Shown here piece after piece: positions 27,127-39,369 of a stretch of 64,000 nucleotides of DNA. Below the pieces are notes generated by a model that searched no databases, was not told the DNA's origin, and saw only the letters and a list, made by a program, of their open reading frames with translations. Where the stretch lies: contig NZ_JBDLLU010000009.1 of assembly GCF_039749495.1 (NCBI RefSeq), forward strand, positions 1-64,000. The letters are read 5' to 3'. Numbering within the stretch: the stretch's first letter is position 1; each line of letters opens with the position of its first letter. Source of the stretch: Dehalogenimonas sp. THU2 (GTDB lineage Bacteria; Chloroflexota; Dehalococcoidia; Dehalococcoidales; Dehalococcoidaceae). Position numbers and translations under genes: made by a program.

Positions 27127-28257
27127 ATGCGCTTATCTTGTCTCCAGGAAAACTTGGCTAAAGGCCTTAACATCGTCGGCCGCGTCGCCGCCGTCCGCTC
27201 CACCCTGCCGATAACCACCAACGTGCTGATCTCCACTGACGAGGGCCGCCTGAAACTGGCCGCCACCAACCTGGAGATGGCCGTTTCCTGCTGGGTCGGC
27301 GCCAAGATAGAGGAAGAAGGCTCCACCACGGTACCGTCCAAGCTCATGGCCGAATTCATCGCCTCGCTACCCAACGATAAAATAGATATGACCTTGTCCG
27401 CCAAGAAGATACTGACCCTCAAGTGCGGCCGGTTCGAGGCGCGCATGACCGGCGTGGACGCCAGGGACTTCCCCCCCATCCCCCGCGTCGAGAGCGGCGT
27501 GACCGCCAAAGTGGACGTGGCTGAGTTCAAGAAAGGCGTTTCCCGCGTCGTCTTCGCCGCCGCCACCGACGAGTCCCGCCCGGTACTGACCGGCATCGAC
27601 GCTGAATTCGACGGCTCCGTCCTGACCCTGGCCGCCGCCGACGGTTTCCGCCTGGCCGTTTACAAGATGGCCCTGGCCGAGCCAGTGTCCCAGAAGGTCA
27701 AGGCGATCATCCCCGCCAAAACCCTCTCCGAGGTCAACCGCCTGATCTCCGACGGCGATGATGCCATCAGCATCACCATCGACACCCAGAAGAGCCAGAT
27801 CCTCTTCAAGCTCAAGAATATCGAGCTGGTGTCCCAACTCCTGCAGGGCACTTTCCCGCAATATTCCCAGATCATCCCGCAGTCCCACACCACCCGCACG
27901 GTGCTGGACGTGCCGCAGTTCCAGATGGCCGCCAAAACCGCCCAGATCTTCGCCCGGGACGGAGGAGGCATCGTCCGCCTGATCATGACCCCCGGCGGCG
28001 CCAAGACCCCCGGCCGCCTGTCCATCACCGCCCGCTCCGAAGAGATCGGCGACGACCAGGCCGAACTGGACGCCGCGGTCTCCGGCGACGAAGCCAAGAT
28101 AGCCTTCAACGGCAAGTACCTGCTGGACGTGTTGAACGTGCTTTCAGAAGACCAGGTAGCCCTTGAAGTAACGGGACCGTCAAGCCCCGGGGTGATCCGG
28201 CCGGTGGGGACGGATAACTATATTCACGTGGTGATGCCCATGTTTGTGCAGTGGTAG
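27127..28257 (+). CDS. dnaN: DNA polymerase III beta subunit (sliding clamp)
   Basis: A 376-aa ring-forming clamp with three repeated domains that tethers the polymerase. It begins MRLSCLQENLAKGLNIVGRV, typical of DnaN, and includes RFEARMTGVDARDFPPIP, SRVVFAAATDESRPVLTGI and the C-terminal end YIHVVMPMFVQW, close to the usual MPMR ending. The ATG at 27127 has GGAGG 9 nt upstream; the in-frame start at 27055 lies before the -10. dnaA and recF are not next to it, and it marks the left edge of the AT-rich island. Confidence 0.95.
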   Translation: MRLSCLQENLAKGLNIVGRVAAVRSTLPITTNVLISTDEGRLKLAATNLEMAVSCWVGAKIEEEGSTTVPSKLMAEFIASLPNDKIDMTLSAKKILTLKCGRFEARMTGVDARDFPPIPRVESGVTAKVDVAEFKKGVSRVVFAAATDESRPVLTGIDAEFDGSVLTLAAADGFRLAVYKMALAEPVSQKVKAIIPAKTLSEVNRLISDGDDAISITIDTQKSQILFKLKNIELVSQLLQGTFPQYSQIIPQSHTTRTVLDVPQFQMAAKTAQIFARDGGGIVRLIMTPGGAKTPGRLSITARSEEIGDDQAELDAAVSGDEAKIAFNGKYLLDVLNVLSEDQVALEVTGPSSPGVIRPVGTDNYIHVVMPMFVQW

Positions 28258-28329
28258 CATAACTGTTTTTAAGTTACCGATGAAGGGCGGCGTGATTGCC
28301 AGAGGTACGGGCGAAAGGGTTTTGCCAAT

Positions 28330-29574
28330 ATGCATTTGACATCATTTAAAATTAACTCATATCGATCTTGTATCAATACGCGATTTCCGCTCAACAAAGA
28401 ACTCACAGCTCTAATAGGAGCAAATGGTTCTGGTAAAAGTAATATTCTCAACGCAATCGTCCTGCTGACGAAGCTTATAAAATCGCGTATAGATAGAGAT
28501 ATTGATACCTCAACACCTAAGAAATGCAAAATAGCCGTAGAGATTGATTGTGACGGAACCCCTGTCCAGATAAAAGCAGATATCGTATTCGAGACCGATG
28601 AACGTAATATTGACGACGTATATGCCACAGATTTGAAATTCAATTTTCAAGGAATCACCAACGAGTCCGCTTGGGTCAGATTCCCATTCCCGTTTTCACC
28701 ATTTCACTATCAGCGTCAGTTTAATTTTAAGTTCGACGAGTTCCTTACCATGGGTGAATTGAGGAGAATTGCTCCATTCATCGATAAATCTCAAAAAGCC
28801 ATACTTAGCAATAAAAAAATAATGGCTGTATTGAGTAAAATTACTGATTATTTGAATAGTATTAGTTATTATAGTGCAAGCCAATTTTCTGACCCATCTC
28901 GATGCCCAGTTTCAATTGAACTTGAAGAAGGCAGACCAGTACGAAGAGTAAGGTGGATTGGGCATGAACAATTTATCTTAGATCTATACAAGTCTTATAA
29001 AGAAGGAAATACCCAATATAAACGATATATCAATACTGTTGGACCTGATGGCATTGGGTTGGTGAATGAAATCGAATTCACCGAGGTGGAAATGCCATCG
29101 AGTTCTTATGAAGTCAAAACTGGTGGAAAAATTAACAAGGTTGAAAGAACGCGCCTTTTAATCGTTCCACGAATAACAATTAACGATAATGAACTGTCTC
29201 CCAATCAGTTATCAGAAGGCACGTTTAAAACCCTAGCTTTAGTGTTTTACATTTTAACTGATGATAGTCGCCTATTGCTGATCGAAGAACCTGAAGTGTG
29301 TGTCCATCATGGTCTCCTTAATAGCATCATTTCGCTCATTGAAACACAATCTAAACAGAAGCAAATTATAATGAGTACCCATTCTGATTTCGTTCTTGAT
29401 CGCTTACAACCCGAGAACCTGTTGCTGGTAAAGAGGTCTCAAGACAAAGGGACCGTAGCCAATACTCTTAGTAGCGTCATGAGCAAGGATAATTACAAAT
29501 CACTTCATACGTACTTGGACAGGATCGGTAATCTCGGTGAATATTGGCGTGAAACAGGATTTGAGAGTGAGTAA
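28330..29574 (+). CDS. AAA/ABC-type ATPase (AAA_21/OLD-like), defence-like
   Basis: A 414-aa RecF/SMC-like ATPase. The N-terminus HLTSFKINSYRSCINTRFPL with Walker A GANGSGKS (30-37) is followed by a divergent insert (about 60-290). Then come an ABC-type signature NQLSEGT, Walker B LLLIEEPE (about 315-322) and the H-loop MSTHSDFVLD. The pattern is that of AAA_15/AAA_21 ATPases such as the OLD and PARIS (AriA) ATPases. It lacks its own TOPRIM; the next gene supplies a TOPRIM-like protein. AT-rich codon use differs from dnaN upstream. Predicted role: nucleotide-dependent sensor of a two-gene defence module (inference). Confidence 0.82.
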   Translation: MHLTSFKINSYRSCINTRFPLNKELTALIGANGSGKSNILNAIVLLTKLIKSRIDRDIDTSTPKKCKIAVEIDCDGTPVQIKADIVFETDERNIDDVYATDLKFNFQGITNESAWVRFPFPFSPFHYQRQFNFKFDEFLTMGELRRIAPFIDKSQKAILSNKKIMAVLSKITDYLNSISYYSASQFSDPSRCPVSIELEEGRPVRRVRWIGHEQFILDLYKSYKEGNTQYKRYINTVGPDGIGLVNEIEFTEVEMPSSSYEVKTGGKINKVERTRLLIVPRITINDNELSPNQLSEGTFKTLALVFYILTDDSRLLLIEEPEVCVHHGLLNSIISLIETQSKQKQIIMSTHSDFVLDRLQPENLLLVKRSQDKGTVANTLSSVMSKDNYKSLHTYLDRIGNLGEYWRETGFESE

Positions 29575-30151
29575 ACATATTAAACTAGGGTGCATCGCCG
29601 AAGATGACTCTGATGTAGATGCTATTAAGGTGTTTGTTAGGAAAATAACCAATAACGATAGAGTCGTTTTTGAGAGGTTTGTTGGGCAAGGGTGTGGTAA
29701 GTTAAAAAGGAAATGCCACGATTGGGCTGACCTCTTAAAGGAGAAGGGGTGTACACGTTTAGTTATCCTACATGATCTTGACAATAACACGATCAAGACC
29801 CTAGAAGCTGAAATCAATAGTTCCCTGTCACCCTGTCCTATCAAAAAACAAATAGTTTGTATACCCATTCAAGAATTGGAAGCATGGCTTTTAAGTGATC
29901 CTGAAGCTATTAAAACGAGCATGCACTTACCGTCAACGCCGAAAATTAAAGGGCTGCCTGAGACAATCGACTCACCAAAGGAACATCTTGGAAGATTAAT
30001 TGCCAGAGCTTCGAAAAACGAAATAATATACATTAATACAAAGCACAACGCAAAAATTTGTAATGCATTGGCCATTGACAAAGTCTTAAGGCGCTGTCCT
30101 TCTTTCATTCCTTTTCATACGTTTATTAAAAGCCACTTCCCTTGCACCTAA
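29567..30151 (+). CDS. DUF4276-like TOPRIM-fold protein
   Basis: 194 residues from GTG 29567, which overlaps the ATPase stop by 8 nt; a GTG at 29537 is an alternative. It contains Glu12 in IAEDDSD after the first strand and Asp70-x-Asp72 in VILHDLDNN, the arrangement of TOPRIM-type nuclease domains, and the IQELEAWLLSD segment I associate with DUF4276. It has His/Lys near the end (INTKHNAKI). Paired with the ATPase, it is the likely effector nuclease, similar in logic to AriA-AriB of PARIS or to OLD split in two genes. The exact family needs a profile search. Confidence 0.75.
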   Translation: MSKHIKLGCIAEDDSDVDAIKVFVRKITNNDRVVFERFVGQGCGKLKRKCHDWADLLKEKGCTRLVILHDLDNNTIKTLEAEINSSLSPCPIKKQIVCIPIQELEAWLLSDPEAIKTSMHLPSTPKIKGLPETIDSPKEHLGRLIARASKNEIIYINTKHNAKICNALAIDKVLRRCPSFIPFHTFIKSHFPCT

Positions 30152-30192
30152 GTGGGCGAAGGCATATAGCCGTGTAGATTCTCCATCCAGCT

Positions 30193-30879
30193 CTAAGTCC
30201 AATGTTGAGGCGACGCGTGCAAGAATCGAGTTATTGCTTTCGACTCCCTCTCTAGTTGTACTGTCTGAATAGTTGTATAGCTTTGAGCATTAAGCTGATA
30301 TAGCACCTTGAATCTGATGATAAGTTTACCTTTATCAATCAGACGATCAATGGTCTTATAGTATTTCGAATCGTTGGGAATAATACTCGCAGCGACGGTC
30401 TCACTGCTTGGGAATAACGGTACTAATAATTCCATTGGTTCATAAGATATGGGAATTCTTTGACTAAAATTATCCAATGTGATTTTTTCGCCGACTTCAA
30501 AATACGTGATTTCCAAGGAGGATATCTCCCCAGGTAGAACCCCGTCATTCCTAAGGCATAGTTCGAACCTTATCTCAGTGTCCAATAAACTCAGAATTGA
30601 CTTTTCATTCTGAATATAGACAAACGGTCTTACATTTAGACGCGCTATTTCAAGTGAATTGGACGCCAATTTTACGGACCTCGATGAAAAATAAGTTGAT
30701 ACAAATAGACTTAACATCGCAATAGCAATAGCGATGCTTTCATTAACCCCGATGTACACTATGAAACCGATCGTGGCTAGTATGGCAATTGCACTAAAAA
30801 GACCAGAGACAACACGTAGGAAAGTGAATTCACGAAGTCTGGTTCGTCTAAGTCTTAAAAATTCCATGATAGCGGCCAT
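30193..30879 (-). CDS. Membrane protein of unknown function
   Basis: 228 residues with two adjacent hydrophobic helices (about 24-43 and 48-66) after a basic Arg-rich start. A soluble region of about 160 residues with beta-strand character follows (RPFVYIQN, IRFELCLRNDGVLPGEISSLEI, LIIRFKVLYQL). This resembles the family of two-helix membrane anchors with an Ig-like cytosolic or external domain found in accessory regions. I cannot name it. It is read opposite to both island modules and is AT-rich like them. Confidence 0.65.
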   Translation of the reverse strand: MAAIMEFLRLRRTRLREFTFLRVVSGLFSAIAILATIGFIVYIGVNESIAIAIAMLSLFVSTYFSSRSVKLASNSLEIARLNVRPFVYIQNEKSILSLLDTEIRFELCLRNDGVLPGEISSLEITYFEVGEKITLDNFSQRIPISYEPMELLVPLFPSSETVAASIIPNDSKYYKTIDRLIDKGKLIIRFKVLYQLNAQSYTTIQTVQLERESKAITRFLHASPQHWT

Positions 30880-31129
30880 TATACTACTTACCTAGGAATG
30901 GCGGAAATGACCTCATTGCATGACTGCCTTTCTTAGGCTATTTGGATCCCCCTTAATTCGTATCGACGTAATGTTTAAAGCCCTCCACCTCATGGGGTGT
31001 TCGTTGGAGTCTTGACCCCCCCTCCCCGCCACGTTTAACCGTCTCTCCATCTCGCCCCGAGGCTGCAGCTCATATTTTGAAGTTGGCCAATGGCTTAATG
31101 AAGCGTTTGGTCGGCTTGTATAAATTGTC
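30880..31129. other. Island intergenic region
   Basis: About 250 bp between the divergent membrane protein gene and the nuclease operon promoter. It holds a C-run (31016-31022) and no convincing gene. The minus-strand frame through it has low-quality composition. Confidence 0.4.
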
Positions 31130-31157
31130 TTGACCTTCGTCACTGCAGGAGTATAAT
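31130..31157 (+). promoter_or_regulatory. Promoter of the three-gene nuclease unit (leaderless)
   Basis: TTGACC (31130-31135), 16-bp spacer, TATAAT (31152-31157), then 6 nt to the ATG at 31164. No Shine-Dalgarno sequence. The transcript should start at the A of the start codon. Confidence 0.75.
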
Positions 31158-31163
31158 GACGCA

Positions 31164-31442
31164 ATGTCTTACTACCTCCATGATATCAATGGGTATGTCG
31201 GCGATCTCGCTTCCACTCACGCCCTTAATTTATTGTCAGATTTCGCCCTGGCTGAGTCCGATTCAGAGACGGTCAAGCAGTTTTTCATCGAAGGACATTC
31301 TCCGATTACCCCCGACCTAATCGATGGGATAAAATCCCTTTCGAGCGGGGATCGGGATATCCAGATTACCCTGGACAACCTAGTCTTGCTACTCGGGAAG
31401 TCCAAAGAAGTGGCCATCATCACGGATGGGATGACAGCATGA
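31164..31442 (+). CDS. Unknown 92-aa acidic protein, first gene of nuclease unit
   Basis: 92 residues, Asp/Ser/Leu-rich and predicted helical (STHALNLLSDFALAE, SETVKQFFIEG, LIDGIKSL, LDNLVLLLG), with no membrane segment. I recognise no family. It is expressed from a strong promoter as a leaderless message. Its stop codon overlaps the next short frame by ATGA (31439-31442). The position at the head of a nuclease operon suggests a regulator, inhibitor or recognition subunit (inference). Confidence 0.7.
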   Translation: MSYYLHDINGYVGDLASTHALNLLSDFALAESDSETVKQFFIEGHSPITPDLIDGIKSLSSGDRDIQITLDNLVLLLGKSKEVAIITDGMTA

Positions 31443-31492
31443 GCAACCTCTTGGATATGTGGAAGAAGCCAGCCGGCATTTCAAAGGTGTAA
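31439..31492 (+). CDS. 17-codon coupling frame (leader peptide or frameshift remnant)
   Basis: MSNLLDMWKKPAGISKV. It begins with the ATG of an ATGA overlap with the 92-aa gene and ends with TAA (31490-31492), whose last base is the A of the nuclease ATG (TAATG). This chain fits termination-reinitiation through three frames. Alternatively the 17 residues are the true N-terminus of the nuclease, split off by a one-base indel between about 31470 and 31490. Either would be unusual. Confidence 0.45.
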   Translation: MSNLLDMWKKPAGISKV

Positions 31493-32496
31493 TGCTAAAA
31501 TCGAGGGTTAAAGAAGAGATGCCGAAAAACGATTTTATCGAGGTTGTCGGAACCACCCAATCACTTTTAAAGAATGAGGGCGAATGGCGGGACCGTTATG
31601 CCAAGTATGCGGAAAAGATCCAAGATAATCTTGATCTAATCAGGGATGTACGTAGCAGGTTTCATGAATGGTCACCCCTTAACGTTTACATGAACATATC
31701 CTCGGCTAAAAATGCCAGAACCTCAGTTAGTTTTGAACTGAGATACCTCGGGCAGACCGTTGCAAAACTCGTGAGTAATAGAGGTATTGGACAGAAGCTG
31801 ACTACAAAACCCTACGATAAAACCAACTTGCGTGACTTCGGTTGTCCCATATGTTTTTCAAATATGGATTGGCGCGGAGATAATGCTAAAAACTTCCGTG
31901 ACCATTTTAAAACGCTGGGTGCACTCAAAAATGAGAGTAACGAAGAACACCGGTTGCAGGATCTATTATTAACGGAGTTTTCCAGAAAGACAGACAAGAC
32001 TCTCCGCCATATCAAGCCAGTAACGATAGCAAGAACGCGATTCCCTATGCCCACACCTATCAGCGCGAGCGACCACAAACAGGTAACTTACTCCGAAGCA
32101 CATGGCGGAGGCATAGACATACTTGCAAGGACTGGCACCGGTGGAAAAACTCACTTGTGTATTTTGGAGTTGAAAGACGAAAACACGAACCGTGAGCCGC
32201 CTAAAGACGCAATGAAACAAGCGGTGGCTTACTCAATTTTTATCCGGGAACTCCTTCGCAGTGATTCCGGGGCAGCCTGGTGGAAACTGTTCGGTTTCCG
32301 CCGAAATATCCCGAAACATCTTGAACTATTCGCGATCTGTGCAATGCCCTCGGGACACAATAACGACTACTCATTCCGCGACATGAAAATAGACATGGGC
32401 GGCGATACAATCAAACTCCATTACATGTATTTTACTGAAGAAAACAACAAAATAAGAGTTGATCCTATCAATACCTCGCTCGGGATCCTTGAGTAG
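31492..32496 (+). CDS. PD-(D/E)XK-fold nuclease
   Basis: 334 residues from ATG 31492; the same frame can be read from GTG 31459. The catalytic core is clear: Glu151/152 in a helix (NEEHRLQDLLL), Asp209 (GGGIDILA), Glu226-x-Lys228 (CILELKDE) and the following helix MKQAVAYSIFI (Gln243). A CPIC pair (118-121) before the core could be part of a metal site. The N-terminal 100 residues are helical, then beta. This is the fold of restriction and defence nucleases. It lies between the 92-aa gene and a beta-CASP nuclease gene, 11 nt from the latter. Confidence 0.8.
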   Translation: MLKSRVKEEMPKNDFIEVVGTTQSLLKNEGEWRDRYAKYAEKIQDNLDLIRDVRSRFHEWSPLNVYMNISSAKNARTSVSFELRYLGQTVAKLVSNRGIGQKLTTKPYDKTNLRDFGCPICFSNMDWRGDNAKNFRDHFKTLGALKNESNEEHRLQDLLLTEFSRKTDKTLRHIKPVTIARTRFPMPTPISASDHKQVTYSEAHGGGIDILARTGTGGKTHLCILELKDENTNREPPKDAMKQAVAYSIFIRELLRSDSGAAWWKLFGFRRNIPKHLELFAICAMPSGHNNDYSFRDMKIDMGGDTIKLHYMYFTEENNKIRVDPINTSLGILE

Positions 32497-32507
32497 CGGA
32501 GAAATCA

Positions 32508-33803
32508 GTGCACCTCACCATCCACCGGGGGTCAAAGGAAATCGGCGGCACGCTGATCGAGCTCAAAACTGAAACAACACGGATATTAATCGATGCGGGC
32601 TACCCCTTGTTCCTCAATAATGCGCCGATTGAAGACAATATCGCCAACCTACCTCCTACCGAGCTTCTTAATCTTGGAGTTCTTCCCAAAATAAAAGGAC
32701 TATACTCTTGGGACAGTCCAGATTTCAACGCAGTCGTGATTTCGCACGCACATATTGACCACTATGGGCTTCTGAAATATATCAACCCAGCAATCCCCGT
32801 TTACATGTCTAAGGGCACTGAAAAACTAATACAAATCTCTCAACGTTTTCACATTTGCGATTGCTTCGATTTGGACATCAGAAATTTCTCAATGCACAAG
32901 CAAATTCAAATTGGGGACATGAGGATAAAACCCCATTTGATGGATCACTCAGCTTTTGACGCTGCTGCATTTGAAATCACCAATGAAGATAAAACGATTG
33001 TCTATTCAGGTGATTTTCGCGGACATGGACGAAAGTCTAAATGCCTCGACTATTTCATTCAAACGGTAAAAAAACATCCCGAGATACTTCTCATCGAGGG
33101 ATCCATGCTCGGACGCCTTGACGAGCAAATGATGACTGAAAGCGAAATCGAGGCAGCAATCGTTGAGCGAATGGGGAGCCGCAAGGGACCTCTGCTTTTT
33201 CAATGTTCAAGCCAGAACATAGATCGCCTTGTCAGTTTCTACAGGGCTGCTTTGAGGTTAAATCGGAAATTTGTGGTCGATGTTTACACGGCCAATATAC
33301 TTCACGAGCTCCGAAAACTCGGGAATAACCTGCCTTATCCATCACCGGAATACCCGAACATCAAGGTGTTTTTCCCTTTTAAGCTGACGAGAAAAATATT
33401 TAACGATATTGGCGAAGAGTACGCCCTGCGCTTCACGGACTACTATATTTCCCGAGATCGACTTAAAACCGACCAGGAAAGTCTAGTCATGGGATCGCGT
33501 CCTTCCATGCGCGTGGACATAGAAAAGTGCGGGTTGCATGACGGTGTGTTCCTGTATTCCTTATGGAAAGGTTATCGCAACGAGTCAAACCAACAATCTT
33601 TTGAAAAGTCTTTGGAGGAAAGAGGCTTTTCGTTAGAAGCCCTCCACACTAGTGGACACGCCTCTGTCATTGATATAAAGCGGGTCATCAACAGTCTTGA
33701 TCCTCAAAAGGTGGTACCGATTCACACGTTGCACCCTGGTGCCTTTTGTGAGTTTTCGGACAGGACAGAACTCCAAGAGGATGGGGTCGCGTTCGAGGTG
33801 TAA
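32508..33803 (+). CDS. Beta-CASP metallo-beta-lactamase-fold nuclease (RNase J-like)
   Basis: 431 residues. The metallo-beta-lactamase motif HAHIDH is at His80, His82, Asp84, His85. His147 (LMDHSAFD) and Asp169 (YSGDFRGHG) complete the metal ligands. The beta-CASP motifs are all present: A Glu197 (LIEGS), B His384 (TSGHA), C His406 (PIHT). The set matches RNA-processing nucleases of the RNase J/CPSF73 class, but the protein is shorter (no C-terminal dimer domain) and clearly not housekeeping RNase J. It starts at GTG 32508 with GGAG 6 nt upstream. Third gene of the unit. Confidence 0.85.
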   Translation: MHLTIHRGSKEIGGTLIELKTETTRILIDAGYPLFLNNAPIEDNIANLPPTELLNLGVLPKIKGLYSWDSPDFNAVVISHAHIDHYGLLKYINPAIPVYMSKGTEKLIQISQRFHICDCFDLDIRNFSMHKQIQIGDMRIKPHLMDHSAFDAAAFEITNEDKTIVYSGDFRGHGRKSKCLDYFIQTVKKHPEILLIEGSMLGRLDEQMMTESEIEAAIVERMGSRKGPLLFQCSSQNIDRLVSFYRAALRLNRKFVVDVYTANILHELRKLGNNLPYPSPEYPNIKVFFPFKLTRKIFNDIGEEYALRFTDYYISRDRLKTDQESLVMGSRPSMRVDIEKCGLHDGVFLYSLWKGYRNESNQQSFEKSLEERGFSLEALHTSGHASVIDIKRVINSLDPQKVVPIHTLHPGAFCEFSDRTELQEDGVAFEV

Positions 33804-34131
33804 AAGGGACTGGTTGGTTATTCCCGTACGAGACGCTTCCGATGAATGCGCAAGGGTGAGGGAAGAAGTCGGCAAGCTACCACGCACTTCAATCCACTAC
33901 TCTATTATCTGGATTAATTCGTCACTGACCCCGCAAAGTCCCATATGTACTGGACTCTAACAGGTCATTGTAAAAAGTTCTTTGGATTGTTAGACTAACC
34001 ATCAATCCAATGACTTCAAGTATATTTACCGAACTGTTTGGCTCGTTAGAATTATCACTAATCGAGCGCCCTAGATTTAAAGAGTGTAAACCGTCAGCGA
34101 TAAACGAACACTTTTAGAAGAGGCAAAATAT
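33804..34131. other. Right edge of the AT-rich island
   Basis: About 330 bp without a gene. There is no integrase, tRNA or clear direct repeat with the left edge (28258-28329). An imperfect ATTGGATTG/CAATCCAAT-type pairing (near 33980-34011: TTTGGATTGTTAGAC...ATCAATCCAA) could form a hairpin downstream of the nuclease operon. Confidence 0.4.
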
Positions 34132-35205
34132 ATGGATAAAACTGAATTATTGTTAAAAGAACTTACCGAAGCCAGCGGTATTCCCGGTTATGAGGGCGGC
34201 ATTCACTGCATCATGAAACGACACTTTGGTAAGTTGGGAGAAGTATCAGGTGACAAACTGGGCAGTGTCATATGTGTTCAGAAGGGTACGCAAGCAGCAC
34301 CGCGCATTTTAATGGCCGCTCACATGGATGAGATTGGCTTCATGGTGAAACTCATCACCCAGGAAGGATTTTTAAAGTTTGTGCCGCTCGGTGGTTGGCC
34401 TAACCAGCACATGGTGGCCCAGCGAGTGTGTATCGAGACATCAATTGGGCAGGTTGTCGGCGTTATAGGTACACCACCGCCGCATCTCTTACCCGAAAAA
34501 GAACGCAATAAGACCATTGACAAGAAAGACATGTACATTGATATCGGTGCCACCTCCAAAGCCGAGGTTGAGGCTGCGGGAGTGAAAGTCGGTGATCCTA
34601 TCGTTCCCATAAGTGAATTTACCGTGTTATCGGTCAAACAGCCGACTTATATGGCAAAGGCTTTTGATGATCGTGTCGGCTGTGCCATACTGATTTCAGC
34701 GATGGAATCGCTGACTGGCGAAGATCACCCCAATACCCTCTTTGGCGTGGGCACAGTTCAGGAAGAAGTGGGATTACGAGGCGCCACCACCAGCGTTGAG
34801 TTGGTAGCACCCGATGTGGCAATAATTTTGGACATCGGGCCAATAGGTGATGTTCCAGGAATCAAGGCCGATGAATCAGTGACGCGTCTTGGAGGCGGGC
34901 CGAATCTGGTGGTTTATGACACAAGAATGATCCCCAACCTCAAGCTTAGAGATTTAGTTATCAGCACCGCCAAAGAATTAAACATCCCGTTGCAATTGGA
35001 CACGCTGGAGTTTGGAGGCTATGACGGTGGCGTCATCCATCTGTATAAGAGCGGTGTTCCGACAGTGGTTATTGCACTACCGACGCGACACGCTCACAGT
35101 CACAATTCAATTATCCGGCGTGATGATTTTGACCTTGCTGTATTATTAGTAACGGCTCTGGTGCGGAAGTTAGATGAGGCAACTGTGGCCGGTTTGTGTG
35201 ATTAG
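34132..35205 (+). CDS. M42-family metallo-aminopeptidase
   Basis: A 357-aa enzyme of the FrvX/PepA (M42, tetrahedral aminopeptidase) family, which trims peptides from the N-terminus in the cytosol. Metal and catalytic residues are visible: AAHMDEIGFMV (His, Asp), KAFDDRVGCA (Asp-bridging), VQEEVGLRGA (Glu-Glu), ILDIG (Asp) and RHAHSHNS (His). GAGG precedes the ATG at 34132. Composition is intermediate between the island and the core genome, and it is the first gene to the right of the island. Confidence 0.92.
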   Translation: MDKTELLLKELTEASGIPGYEGGIHCIMKRHFGKLGEVSGDKLGSVICVQKGTQAAPRILMAAHMDEIGFMVKLITQEGFLKFVPLGGWPNQHMVAQRVCIETSIGQVVGVIGTPPPHLLPEKERNKTIDKKDMYIDIGATSKAEVEAAGVKVGDPIVPISEFTVLSVKQPTYMAKAFDDRVGCAILISAMESLTGEDHPNTLFGVGTVQEEVGLRGATTSVELVAPDVAIILDIGPIGDVPGIKADESVTRLGGGPNLVVYDTRMIPNLKLRDLVISTAKELNIPLQLDTLEFGGYDGGVIHLYKSGVPTVVIALPTRHAHSHNSIIRRDDFDLAVLLVTALVRKLDEATVAGLCD

Positions 35206-35308
35206 TACGAGCAGCACTCCATGTGTTCGTAATATACACGACCGCTTATTATCTGGGCTATCCGGCAGGGAGTTGAGTCTCAATGCTGGTGCAATAATCC
35301 ATCATCCC

Positions 35309-35548
35309 TCAAATCACCATGATCTCCGACTGAGGCACTTCAAACTCCGTGGAACATATTTCGCATTTGAAGATGACTCTTCCCAAAGAATGGCCTGTTT
35401 TTTCAAACCTTGTAACGGAGGCGTATTCCCCGTCCACAGGGCATTTTGCAGTGAGCGAGTAGCGGTATTTTGTTTCCGGGTCTATTGTGCTGAGTTCCCC
35501 AAGATCGAACATTTTCTTGATCATTTTCGGGGCTTTCTTGGCTTCCAT
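35309..35548 (-). CDS. Small zinc-ribbon-like protein, 79 aa
   Basis: 79 residues with Cys in AKCPVDGE and FKCEICSTEFEV, giving three or four Cys in a zinc-finger-like arrangement, and an N-terminal basic helix (EAKKAPKMIKKMFDLG). I do not recognise a named family. AAGGAGG lies 6 nt before the ATG, which supports a real gene. Confidence 0.7.
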   Translation of the reverse strand: MEAKKAPKMIKKMFDLGELSTIDPETKYRYSLTAKCPVDGEYASVTRFEKTGHSLGRVIFKCEICSTEFEVPQSEIMVI

Positions 35549-35832
35549 TGTTGGCCTCCTTCACGTAATACAAGTGGGACACTCTGATTGTATGCCTTCG
35601 TCGGGCTTCAGGCAAAGCGACGAAAACGAAAATCCCACCCTATCACCATGTTTAATCGCTTCACCACCTCGTCCTAGTTCTTCAGCTTCTGATTTAAGCG
35701 GGGAATCTCACGTTCTCGGCGGCGATAATAATTGTTGGGAGGAGGTAGGATAAAATATATTTTTATTAACCATTGAATCCGCTCAGGTGATGGCTTAGAA
35801 TGAACTCAATCCCCGATAGAGGAGTTTTTTTA

Positions 35833-38709
35833 ATGGCCGAGTATATCAAACCAGTTTCCCGGCGGCGTTTTGTCAAAGGGGTAACGGTGGCCGGCGCCGG
35901 CATTGCCATGTTCGGATTGGATGCCTGTGTAGGGGATGCAGACAAATCCGAGGGGCAACCTGAAGACGATCTTTTACACTTCCAGGGATTTGGCAAGACG
36001 GCCGGGGGAGAATGGGATGCTGAAGCTGCTGTCAGCGCGCAGGGGTTCAAGAGCGGTGACGACGTTGAGTTGTCTCTCACCCTGATGGTGCCAAATTCAA
36101 TGATCACAGCTCTGGCACAATCCAAAATACTCGCGGACGGCTTCTGCCTGCTGGTCACTGCCGAACGAAGTTTCGATTTCAACGGTATTCAACGATTGCC
36201 GTCCGATGAAAAAATGTCAACGCTCATTACCCCGACCGGCCTGGCCATTGAAGGCGGAGTGCAGGGAGCGGTTACCAAGAGATACGGCTACACCTGGAAA
36301 ACACCGGTGGATGAATACGTTACTGTACCCATGACGGCGAGCACAGCTTCACTCGATGAGCGCAAAGTTGATTTTACGGTTAAAACGACTATGCCGGCGG
36401 ATATTCCCCCGGGCATTTACCGGTTGAGGCTGGACCTGGGGGTTACGGCGCAGGAGAAGCGTTACAGCATGGCGGGGTATAAATTCGCGACCCGGCCATC
36501 AGCGGCGAACAACCCCGCCGAATCCCATTTTTATTCGCCACCTATCCGGGTAAGCGGGACCGCCTCAGACGGCCGTCCGGTTGACGCAACGGCGATCAAA
36601 CCCAGGATACCCTGGACTTTATTGTCCGCCTATAATTCCAATGGGTATGCCGGGGTTGTGGCCGATGAAGATAAACCGAATTTTGCCCTGTCGCCCCGCA
36701 CCATTATACCCGACGATGTGATACTACCGATGTACGGAGACGACAATAAAACTGTTGCCTCATATTCTCTGGAGCCGCGTTTTCCAACTCAAACGATCGA
36801 GGCACGAAATGGCATACCCTTGAACAACCTGGCCGGAGAGTTGGCCTTGTCTGTAAATGGGCCCGATGGTCAAATGGTTGACCTGGGAAAAGCGCAGTTC
36901 ACGGGCAAAGCGGGGGATTGGCCTACGACCAAGAATCCGACCTTCACTGCCTGGAAACCCTGGGCTTACGGCGATTACATCGTAAAAGCCGCCGGTTTCA
37001 TCGTCGATACCTGGGGTAACCGGTACGAAGGCGGAGGGACATATCATTTTACCATCGCCAAACGCATGACGCTGGCTACAGCGACGTTCCAGGGCCATGC
37101 TTTCGCCGTCGGCGGCAGGTACGGGCGGGACCTGGGGTTTGCCCCGGCGGTGCCGGCCGAGGTCAAAGGCACGGCAACGCTATTTGTTAATTCCAACCCG
37201 GCGGATAAACGCACCATCACTTTTTCCGGTACAGCATCGCCATCTGGCTTGTTCACCGCAGCGCAGGGAAATGCCCAACTCATCCTGGACGCGCCGGGAG
37301 AATATGCCGCCTATATCACCGCCCGGTATACCGATCAGGAAGGCCACCTGTGGGCCTGCAGCATGCGCCATGCGGGTATCGTTTATCCAACAGACTCGAG
37401 TATCGTGGCGCATGGCAAAAAACTCACCATCTCAGGCAAGTACGTCGACCGCGGGGAAACCCATTTCGAAGGTTATGTCGATAGCGACGGAGAAAACCAC
37501 CTGGCTCATATCAATTTCCCCTATAACGCCGGCGATGTCCTACTGATCGGATCGGAGCAGCAGGGGGCAAATAAGATCGAGCCGATGCTGCTGTACGACA
37601 TCAAGGCGAAGCCGTTCACTTATGAAGCCGGCTGGCAAACTATCGGCGCGACAAATGTGCAGATCAAGACTTCGAACGGACTGTCGCCGCACCTGTTTCC
37701 CGAATACATAACCGACCGGGCATATTTTTACGGCGCCGCGCCGCGGCCGGGATTCATGTCGCGATTCATCGTCGGCGAGAACGGGGTGAAAGCTCCCTAC
37801 TGGCCGGTTTCACCAAACTCGTTCGGCGGCCAGATCAACGCCTCTTCCAACGGCGATTTGCCGGGCACGATTTATCGATTGATCGGCGGTGTGGCCGTTT
37901 TCAACCAGGACGAGCCCCCAGCCTATGCGGGCTACCTGGCGTCCAGCTTTGTCATGCCGGGCAAGAGCAATAATAACCGGGTGATCGCGGCAGGGAGCGA
38001 GGATTTACTGGGAGCCGACGGCACCAGGGCCCGGCTCTTCATGGTAAGCATCCGCCCGGGGATGACCTACGAAACTGGGGCTTCATTCACGCCGGTGGCT
38101 CAGATCGATCCGGTGCTGCCGGCAGCGGTCAAATTCACCCTGACCCGCCCGGACGGGCGGGTGTTAGTAGCCGAGAATACCGGTGATGCCGGCGGATCCT
38201 TCGTCGGGAAAGAAAAATGGATACTGGATATACCGGGTGTATATACTTTTTTCATCGAAGCGGACTGGCAGGGCAACAAAGGCTATATGCCGGGATTGCC
38301 CAAAGACGGCGGTAAAATCTTCGTCGTCGAGCGCGAACAATTGCCTCAGAGCCTGAATTTAAGGCTGGTATTGCCGGAACAGACTGTTTTTGCCCAAAAC
38401 GGGTCCATGAACATCAATGGTTTGAGCACCGGCAGCGAGGTTCATTATGCCGCGGTGACGCCGGGCGCGGTCACCATCCAGGGAGTTATCCCGGTGAAGT
38501 CCGGCAAGTTCAACTTGGTCTTTGATCCGGCAGTCATTGCCCAAGGAACACCTCTGTATGATATCAAAAACCTCAAAACGGGCAAGCCGGAGGTGAAAAG
38601 AGTTATCCACCTCACCCTGTTCAGCAGGGAAAAGGCCGCTGACGGAACAAGCTATCACTCGTTCGTACGGCTTATCATCCGGGGCACGACGGTTTTATAT
38701 ACGTATTAG
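35833..38709 (+). CDS. Large Tat-exported lipoprotein-like protein
   Basis: 958 residues. The Tat signal SRRRFVKGVTVAGAGIAMFG is followed by LDAC, which could be a lipobox (Cys34 or so), so it is probably exported folded and anchored to the outer face of the membrane. The rest is beta-rich with several Ig-like sections of roughly 100 residues (for example GIYRLRLDLGVTA, GEYAAYITARYTDQEG, GVYTFFIEADWQGNKG). No catalytic motif is recognised. The ATG at 35833 is chosen over 35800 because GAGGAG is 8 nt upstream and the twin-Arg motif then sits at the proper distance. The gene stands alone. Confidence 0.78.
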   Translation: MAEYIKPVSRRRFVKGVTVAGAGIAMFGLDACVGDADKSEGQPEDDLLHFQGFGKTAGGEWDAEAAVSAQGFKSGDDVELSLTLMVPNSMITALAQSKILADGFCLLVTAERSFDFNGIQRLPSDEKMSTLITPTGLAIEGGVQGAVTKRYGYTWKTPVDEYVTVPMTASTASLDERKVDFTVKTTMPADIPPGIYRLRLDLGVTAQEKRYSMAGYKFATRPSAANNPAESHFYSPPIRVSGTASDGRPVDATAIKPRIPWTLLSAYNSNGYAGVVADEDKPNFALSPRTIIPDDVILPMYGDDNKTVASYSLEPRFPTQTIEARNGIPLNNLAGELALSVNGPDGQMVDLGKAQFTGKAGDWPTTKNPTFTAWKPWAYGDYIVKAAGFIVDTWGNRYEGGGTYHFTIAKRMTLATATFQGHAFAVGGRYGRDLGFAPAVPAEVKGTATLFVNSNPADKRTITFSGTASPSGLFTAAQGNAQLILDAPGEYAAYITARYTDQEGHLWACSMRHAGIVYPTDSSIVAHGKKLTISGKYVDRGETHFEGYVDSDGENHLAHINFPYNAGDVLLIGSEQQGANKIEPMLLYDIKAKPFTYEAGWQTIGATNVQIKTSNGLSPHLFPEYITDRAYFYGAAPRPGFMSRFIVGENGVKAPYWPVSPNSFGGQINASSNGDLPGTIYRLIGGVAVFNQDEPPAYAGYLASSFVMPGKSNNNRVIAAGSEDLLGADGTRARLFMVSIRPGMTYETGASFTPVAQIDPVLPAAVKFTLTRPDGRVLVAENTGDAGGSFVGKEKWILDIPGVYTFFIEADWQGNKGYMPGLPKDGGKIFVVEREQLPQSLNLRLVLPEQTVFAQNGSMNINGLSTGSEVHYAAVTPGAVTIQGVIPVKSGKFNLVFDPAVIAQGTPLYDIKNLKTGKPEVKRVIHLTLFSREKAADGTSYHSFVRLIIRGTTVLYTY

Positions 38710-38735
38710 CTGCCAACGCTGAAAGATGAGGGCAA

Positions 38736-39230
38736 CTAGTCTTTTTTACCGCCGATATAACTGAAGCCGACGAGGGCACCGGTGACCACCGCGATGCTCA
38801 GTCCAAAAAACAGCGTCCCCTGCGGGTCTTCCCACACCACCAGGTGCTTCAGGAACACGATGCCCATGACCATGATGACGACGCTGGAAAGCTTCACCTT
38901 CAGATCATGCAGGTTCCTGATAATCAGCCACTCAGGCAGCGTCAGGTTACCGAGGAACAGTTCATAGATGCCAAGGGAGAAAATGAGCAGCACAGTGGCG
39001 ATAAGGAAGATGTCCATCAGCTCGATGAGCGGAACGACATCGATGCCGCCGTTGAAGAAACCCAGGAGCACTTCAACAGAGTGCACCAAGCCCCAGCCGA
39101 AGGCCACCACCGAGGCCAGCAGCGACGCGGCAACGGCGATCAGGGTGATGTACTTGCTTTTCTCCAGTAAAGTGCGCAACAGACCGGCTTTCTCCGGTTC
39201 GGAAGGACCGGTTGTTTGTGGGTGAATCAC
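38736..39230 (-). CDS. UPF0114 (YqhA)-family membrane protein
   Basis: 164 residues with four hydrophobic helices and the family pattern around LIELMDIFLIATVLLIFSLG and LGNLTLPEWLIIRNLHDLK. The role of the YqhA family is not known. The start is GTG at 39230. On the minus strand TGA-TATAAT (39242-39237) ends 6 nt upstream, so the message is probably leaderless. Confidence 0.85.
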   Translation of the reverse strand: MIHPQTTGPSEPEKAGLLRTLLEKSKYITLIAVAASLLASVVAFGWGLVHSVEVLLGFFNGGIDVVPLIELMDIFLIATVLLIFSLGIYELFLGNLTLPEWLIIRNLHDLKVKLSSVVIMVMGIVFLKHLVVWEDPQGTLFFGLSIAVVTGALVGFSYIGGKKD

Positions 39231-39236
39231 CGGCGG

Positions 39237-39245
39237 ATTATATCA
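39237..39245 (-). promoter_or_regulatory. Extended -10 promoter of the YqhA-like gene (leaderless)
   Basis: TGA-TATAAT on the minus strand, 6 nt before GTG 39230. No -35 and no Shine-Dalgarno sequence. Confidence 0.6.
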
Positions 39246-39369
39246 GATTCCCCGGCGGGGCGGCGAGTAGCCTCGCATGACTATTGTTGGGGGTTTTAGC
39301 GGTGGAGTTGGGTTCAGTGTCTTAAAACACCGAGATACTGAAGAAAAAGGGAATAATGCCTCCGGCGTG

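Follow-up and report, generated by a model that had tools for sequence, protein, structure and literature searches.

Organisation of the locus

The 64,000-nt stretch of Dehalogenimonas sp. THU2 DNA analysed here (contig NZ_JBDLLU010000009.1, positions 1 to 64,000; hereafter the window) contains three closely spaced genes on the forward strand, which encode a 92 amino acid (aa) acidic protein (31164..31442), a PD-(D/E)XK-type nuclease (31491..32496) and a 431 aa metallo-beta-lactamase (MBL) of the beta-CASP group that starts on a GTG codon (32508..33803). A check of the open reading frames (ORFs) of the window located all three at the positions given in a preliminary description of this DNA, which had proposed them as a three-gene nuclease system. 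Comparison with other genomes strongly supports a smaller predicted core, a two-gene module of the beta-CASP and PD-(D/E)XK genes: these two co-occur massively elsewhere, while the exact trio was found nowhere beyond the window and the 92 aa protein appears to be accessory. The observation behind the preliminary description was confirmed, and its overall interpretation was partly supported.

A σ70-like promoter (TTGACC-N16-TATAAT, 31130..31157, forward strand) precedes the first gene, and is the only 11/12 consensus match within positions 28200–34200, which makes the suggested single promoter shared by the three genes plausible; promoter-like sites in this interval overall show no excess over shuffled sequence. 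Since the -10 box ends 6 nt ahead of the first ATG, the message of the 92 aa gene is likely to be leaderless, with translation starting without a leader. The 92 aa stop codon (ATGA) and the PD-(D/E)XK ATG (TAATG) are both overlapped by a forward-strand mini-ORF of 17 codons (MSNLLDMWKKPAGISKV, 31439..31492), recognised from its sequence and translation, which may encode either a coupling peptide or the true N-terminus of the PD-(D/E)XK protein, displaced by a one-base change. An alternative in-frame GTG at 31459 would lengthen the PD-(D/E)XK protein by 11 residues when compared with the ATG at 31491. No structured RNA, tRNA or repeat array was detected near the three genes, with arrays being sought across 26–36 kb.

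The two nucleases

The beta-CASP protein was recognised by its Pfam matches (Lactamase_B_2, 2.6e-10; RMMBL, 1.7e-6) and its active site, and scores 66.9 bits against a cut-off of 400 with the RNase J subfamily model TIGR00649, hence it is not a member of that subfamily. The nearest solved chain is EF2904 of Enterococcus faecalis (2AZ4, 9.6e-24), which has been listed as a hypothetical beta-CASP protein (PMC3095777). The MBL motifs consist of D29, the HAHIDH run (H80-A-H82-I-D84-H85), H147 and D169, and the beta-CASP motifs of E197, H384 and H406, all of which are invariant in a seven-sequence alignment. In an alignment of 88 beta-CASP proteins, MBL motifs 2–4 are present in 85–87 rows and the catalytic residues cited in the preliminary description are kept in 83–87, with each of the nine metal-binding and catalytic residues showing at most one exception among the ungapped rows. 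Motif C is His406, with histidine at this position in 83/84 ungapped rows. As histidine marks the RNA-acting and valine the DNA-acting beta-CASP members (PMC3095777, following Callebaut et al.), the window enzyme is most likely of the RNA type.

The catalytic residues of the PD-(D/E)XK protein, when numbered from GTG 31459, are E163, D220, E237-x-K239 and Q254xxxY258, and hence D209, E226, K228 and Q243 of the preliminary description (numbered from ATG 31491) correspond to D220, E237, K239 and Q254. Within the family of the window protein (five sequences), D220, E237, K239, Q254 and Y258 are invariant, with Q254 and Y258 forming a QxxxY motif. The complete catalytic sets ascribed to two unrelated nuclease folds are thus present, and are essentially invariant in relatives. 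The other four family members, which are 49–55% identical to the window protein, are encoded directly upstream of a beta-CASP gene at loci L020, L021, L024 and L028, and a search for further relatives in 83 genomes of the class of L020 returned only the known loci. In two of these (L020:110-1699 and L021:391-1980), an uncharacterised domain of approximately 195 aa is fused ahead of the window-type PD-(D/E)XK protein.

Co-occurrence of the two nuclease genes

In plasmids of Ochrobactrum, Rhizobium, Cupriavidus, Sphingomonas and Butyrivibrio, reading of the gene neighbourhoods showed an ORF bearing an ExK motif either next to the beta-CASP gene or close by. A further 80 beta-CASP loci came from scanning GTDB genomes with the family alignment, and the resulting set comprised 87 loci outside this genome with a sufficiently intact beta-CASP ORF. 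A D...ExK motif was found in adjacent ORFs at 68/87 of these loci (counted per locus, with one to three ORFs each, and including a few spurious motif matches), versus 29/304 distant ORFs of similar length. Using hidden Markov models (HMMs) of four partner families, a PD-(D/E)XK gene was detected next door at 60/87 loci, distributed over families A7 (42 loci), A5 (10), A6 (4) and A3 (4, plus the window), and approximately 11 more loci have a convincing adjacent PD-(D/E)XK gene by motif only. Several of the loci lacking a partner represent contig ends or have broken partner genes, and the outgroup relatives L017 and L018 are without a PD-(D/E)XK partner. The HMM-detected pairs span about ten phyla, including Bacillota, Pseudomonadota, Chloroflexota, Thermodesulfobacteriota, Bacteroidota, Cloacimonadota, Spirochaetota, Acidobacteriota and Myxococcota, and also occur in a Vermiphilus genome. 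The partner ORF detected by family lies upstream of the beta-CASP gene in 46 cases, with an exact 4-bp overlap in 18/46, and the layout shows the two predicted genes to be translationally coupled.

In family A7, pairwise distances among the beta-CASP proteins correlate with those among their partners (Mantel r = 0.77, 0/2000 permutations, 34 pairs). Shared organismal descent contributes to this value, which is taken here as no more than support for a joint movement of the pairs. Chance neighbourhood of the two genes was rejected by this correlated divergence and by both adjacency counts.

The fold of the main partner family was modelled with the A7 partner of locus L041, for which AlphaFold2 returned a model with a predicted local distance difference test score (pLDDT) of 86 and a predicted template modelling score of 0.87, based on 26 sequences. 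After re-alignment, the top structural matches were EndoMS (Z 9.2), Upx (8.9), SduA (7.4), HamA (7.1) and FokI (7.0), with Can2, McrC, NucC and Card1 ranking lower; PD-(D/E)XK nucleases head and fill most of this list. The plain Foldseek E-values were not significant for either the window or the L041 partner model, so that the structural case rests on the re-alignment, and a search of solved structures with the partner profile gave chance-level matches only. The predicted structure supports a restriction-endonuclease-like core fold for family A7. Its motif and gene position, together with weak profile matches, probably tie the window PD-(D/E)XK protein to the other partners.

Exchange of the partner nuclease

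The catalytic D, E and K residues of the partners are invariant in all members of the four families (38, 10, 6 and 5 sequences). A maximum-likelihood tree of 84 beta-CASP proteins showed that the partner families interleave, with well-supported branches forcing at least eight changes for A5, at least five for A6 and at least four for A3. The clade of the window protein (13 rows, support 98/89) has alternating A3, A5 and A6 partners, and the sister rows L026 (A5) and L028 (A3) are joined with support of 100/99. This interleaving shows the beta-CASP enzyme to be the constant part of the predicted module, with the PD-(D/E)XK family being replaced repeatedly, also within the window's own clade, while the catalytic residues were kept.

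The 92 aa protein and other small neighbours

The only complete homologue found of the 92 aa protein occurs in a Dehalococcoidia bacterium, as the N-terminal domain of a beta-CASP MBL fusion (L041:339-1922; residues 1–90, phmmer 1.5e-20, 47–48% identity), where the PD-(D/E)XK gene starts 16 bp downstream of the fused beta-CASP gene. Homologues are absent from L020, L021, L024 and L028, which contain the closest relatives of the window pair, and a search of 399 genomes from the phylum of L041 returned the known locus and one broken remnant of 23 residues. By its distribution, the 92 aa protein is a lineage-specific accessory rather than a fixed component, but the fusion of its homologue in L041, to a beta-CASP enzyme encoded beside a PD-(D/E)XK gene, nonetheless links it to the cassette. 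Given this fusion, the protein is more likely to be a subunit or adaptor of the beta-CASP enzyme than a free antitoxin; the role of sensor or inhibitor proposed in the preliminary description is a guess.

Other cassettes are accompanied by different genes. A small protein with GIFW and HYR motifs is encoded near the cassettes in eight loci (L011:5552-5947, L012:5516-5992, L014:7250-7624, L049, L053, L071 with two copies, L076 and L080), and the members tested had no NCBIfam or PHROGs match. Three loci (L022, L023 and L036) share a family of small proteins of 132–139 aa, and WYL regulators adjoin several cassettes. The pattern is that of a constant enzyme pair with variable accessory parts around it.

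Genomic setting

The three genes lie in an AT-rich island, as had been described, with a GC content of 42–46% at 28–34 kb compared with 56–62% in most of the adjoining DNA. The PD-(D/E)XK protein of the window was not found in any of 300 further genomes of the phylum, among them seven congeneric ones. The insertion starts directly after dnaN, and comparison of the dnaN 3′ side between the window (28258-39356) and L107, L108, L109, L110 and L112 showed that the DNA following dnaN differs in each sister species: it contains either a GajB-like UvrD helicase gene or a serine recombinase gene, the latter with or without a methyltransferase (MTase)/restriction endonuclease pair. The serine recombinase gene overlaps the 3′ end of dnaN in L110 and L112, with a type II MTase/restriction endonuclease pair among the cargo. 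The dnaN 3′ side in this genus thus has the appearance of an integration hotspot for defence cargo. The M42 aminopeptidase gene, located at 34132 in the window, sits elsewhere in the sister genome G030.

Upstream in the same insertion, and outside the cassette, are two overlapping forward-strand genes (28330-30151), which encode an AAA_21/AAA_15 ATPase resembling HEC-01A and AriA (28330..29574) and a HEC-01B-like DUF4276 protein as its partner (29537..30151). According to Pfam and PADLOC, this pair resembles HEC-01A/B and distantly PARIS AriA and MADS3/4, which bears out the earlier suggestion of a neighbouring defence-like ATPase pair and makes it a candidate for a second predicted defence unit of the insertion. 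Between this pair and the cassette, the reverse strand encodes a 228 aa protein with N-terminal membrane-like segments and without family match (30193-30879), and a 969 aa protein with a twin-arginine-like signal (SRRRFVKG), without NCBIfam match, is encoded further downstream on the forward strand (35800-38709).

Elsewhere, several of the cassette loci are plasmid-borne or adjoin integrases, relaxases or transposases, and others have chromosomal locations, while the flanks of these loci mix restriction-modification, WYL, mobile-element and ordinary genes. Plasmid relatives of the beta-CASP protein found by tblastn are 23–35% identical to it. A role as viral or plasmid core gene was rejected: searches of viral contigs with the PD-(D/E)XK protein and with the beta-CASP alignment returned no relatives, searches of plasmids with the PD-(D/E)XK protein returned none, and matches of the beta-CASP protein to phage records are distant, at 22–29% identity. 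One record, L017 (OL539428.1, 31891-45090), is probably mislabelled or contaminated: its label is that of Escherichia coli plasmid pCTX-M-55, but it contains genes of Gram-positive type, LiaFSR among them, and its beta-CASP protein matches the query with a score and identity equal to those of the protein in Enterococcus phage records.

Proposed function of the cassette

We propose, with a probability of about 0.55, that the cassette is an undescribed anti-mobile-element or defence unit in which the two predicted enzymes act jointly; the defence function is inferred, and the way in which the enzymes share the work carries lower confidence than their joint role in defence. The two enzymes would belong to a single complex or pathway that targets incoming or mobile nucleic acid; the beta-CASP enzyme would most likely cut invader RNA (transcripts, primers or R-loop RNA), and the PD-(D/E)XK enzyme would most likely cut the DNA of the same target. 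Such a combined attack on RNA and DNA, as already put forward in the preliminary description, would fit the motifs. Because it has been repeatedly replaced, the PD-(D/E)XK part may carry the recognition of the target or trigger, changed by an arms race while the cutting chemistry is retained, and its exchange would reflect selection that acts on recognition or on the evasion of inhibitors. Since fusion to the beta-CASP enzyme occurs, the 92 aa protein would most likely bind that subunit, serving as adaptor or activity switch.

Several results weigh against this reading. The profile of the window PD-(D/E)XK protein matched the other partner families weakly over the D/ExK catalytic region (E-values of 0.025, 0.001 and 1.9e-4), an N-terminal homology with the main partner family (GQxVAKL) was rejected as it did not rise above shuffled sequences, and the structural model of the window protein is poor (pLDDT 54.5, five sequences) and has no significant PDB match. 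In addition, 27 rows of the tree are without an HMM-detected partner, some of them at contig ends, and shared descent accounts for part of the Mantel correlation. Among 97 flanking ORFs, PADLOC recognised type I MTases, WYL proteins, mad2 and AbiEii, with one or two members per family, and many flanks consist of ordinary or mobile-element genes.

Beta-CASP enzymes commonly process RNA or DNA ends, and the repair nuclease EndoMS ranks first among the structural matches of the partner, which together with the plasmid-borne loci and the adjoining integrases, relaxases and transposases would suit a function in RNA/DNA maintenance for mobile elements or hosts, such as removal of RNA primers or R-loops, or end repair. 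We consider this unlikely, though it is the alternative that survives best, as the very patchy distribution (1/301 genomes of the phylum), the repeated exchange of the PD-(D/E)XK gene and the presence at chromosomal as well as plasmid sites fit conflict systems better. A slightly smaller chance is given to a toxin-antitoxin-like unit, in which one or both nucleases would be self-toxic and the small first gene would encode the antidote, thereby stabilising the element or aborting infection. The small acidic protein is encoded first in a tight operon with an accessory location, and small third genes are present elsewhere (the GIFW family in eight loci, the 132–139 aa family in three), but the small gene is not conserved, most loci are without a recognisable small partner, the complete 92 aa homologue is covalently fused to the beta-CASP enzyme, unlike a separable antidote, and the conserved pair consists of two enzymes. 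It is very improbable that the beta-CASP protein hydrolyses a nucleotide second messenger and thereby holds back or resets the PD-(D/E)XK effector, as the family-library searches with the three genes detected neither a cyclase nor a CARF or SAVED domain, despite the existence of PD-(D/E)XK effectors activated by cyclic oligonucleotides (Can2, Card1 and NucC being among the weaker structural matches) and of phage nucleases known to subvert signalling by CBASS and Pycsar (PMC9117128), some of them having an MBL fold.

Beyond a joint role in defence, it is possible, but as yet a tentative suggestion, that the cassettes represent a new class of immune system, combining an RNA-type beta-CASP enzyme with an interchangeable PD-(D/E)XK DNA nuclease and with swappable small subunits as switches. 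Invader RNA and DNA would then be attacked at the same time or one after the other, R-loops and primed replication forks being examples of possible sites. If the proposed defence role is correct, a widespread immune cassette has been missed, with its parts annotated as 'MBL fold metallo-hydrolase' and 'hypothetical protein', and a single unit joins an RNA-type and a DNA-type nuclease. The cassettes would also offer a natural experiment, in which one enzyme is kept and its partner nuclease is replaced again and again, allowing direct tests of how sensing and killing are divided between the enzymes and of the reason for keeping both active sites.

Comparison with known systems

The assertion that no named system has this composition held in searches of PADLOC, Pfam, NCBIfam and PHROGs, none of which matched the unit, and identity with a known named system was rejected on this basis. 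The 92 aa and PD-(D/E)XK proteins had no Pfam or NCBIfam family above chance and no PHROGs match, and the 92 aa and beta-CASP proteins had no match in PADLOC (2023 models). The best PADLOC hit of the PD-(D/E)XK protein was weak (PDC-S11, 0.0015 over 57 residues), with nothing better than 0.0019 for ten partner proteins. In the open literature, leaving subscription journals and most preprints unsearched, no paper was found to link a beta-CASP enzyme to a PD-(D/E)XK partner outside CRISPR surveys and a ribonuclease review.

The window beta-CASP protein shares the MBL and beta-CASP architecture, all zinc ligands and motifs A (Glu), B (His) and C (His) with RNase J, TTHA0252 and EF2904 (2AZ4), and at 431 aa has a length similar to that of TTHA0252 (431 aa) and EF2904 (429 aa), whereas RNase J is longer (approximately 555 aa). 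Unlike these bacterial and archaeal beta-CASP nucleases, the window enzyme adjoins a PD-(D/E)XK gene.

An MBL-fold nuclease beside a partner gene is likewise found in accessory immune loci with HamM and the trypsin-MBL pairs of Hachiman, AVAST, Lamassu and DRT, which also have in common with the window cassette the modular exchange of associated genes (PMC12799240). The MBL protein of those pairs has been likened to ComEC and is activated by a trypsin-like protease (PMC12799240), whereas the MBL of the window is of the beta-CASP type, has a PD-(D/E)XK partner and is not accompanied by a protease. Assignment to the trypsin-MBL pairs was rejected, as Pfam recognised no protease domain in the three genes or their three nearest neighbours.

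The PD-(D/E)XK cores of Shedu SduA and Hachiman HamA superpose on the model of the main partner family, but there is no sequence-family match above the cut-off between them and the partners. To our knowledge, SduA acts alone and HamA with a helicase, and neither acts with a beta-CASP enzyme.

Type VII CRISPR-Cas resembles the cassette in its use of a beta-CASP ribonuclease, Cas14, for immunity (PMC10910872). It was rejected as an identity for the cassette, with the Cas14 model scoring 19.6 against a cut-off of 800 bits, no array at 26–36 kb and, according to Pfam, no Cas5- or Cas7-like gene among the three. The CoCoNuTs, a group of type IV restriction systems, have nuclease tandems predicted to target RNA (PMC11090510), and thus offer a further likeness within bacterial immunity; they form a McrBC branch with coiled coils, whereas the window pair is without a motor protein. 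New in the cassette is the pairing itself, which is unnamed in the libraries searched, while both folds and the likely general role are known.

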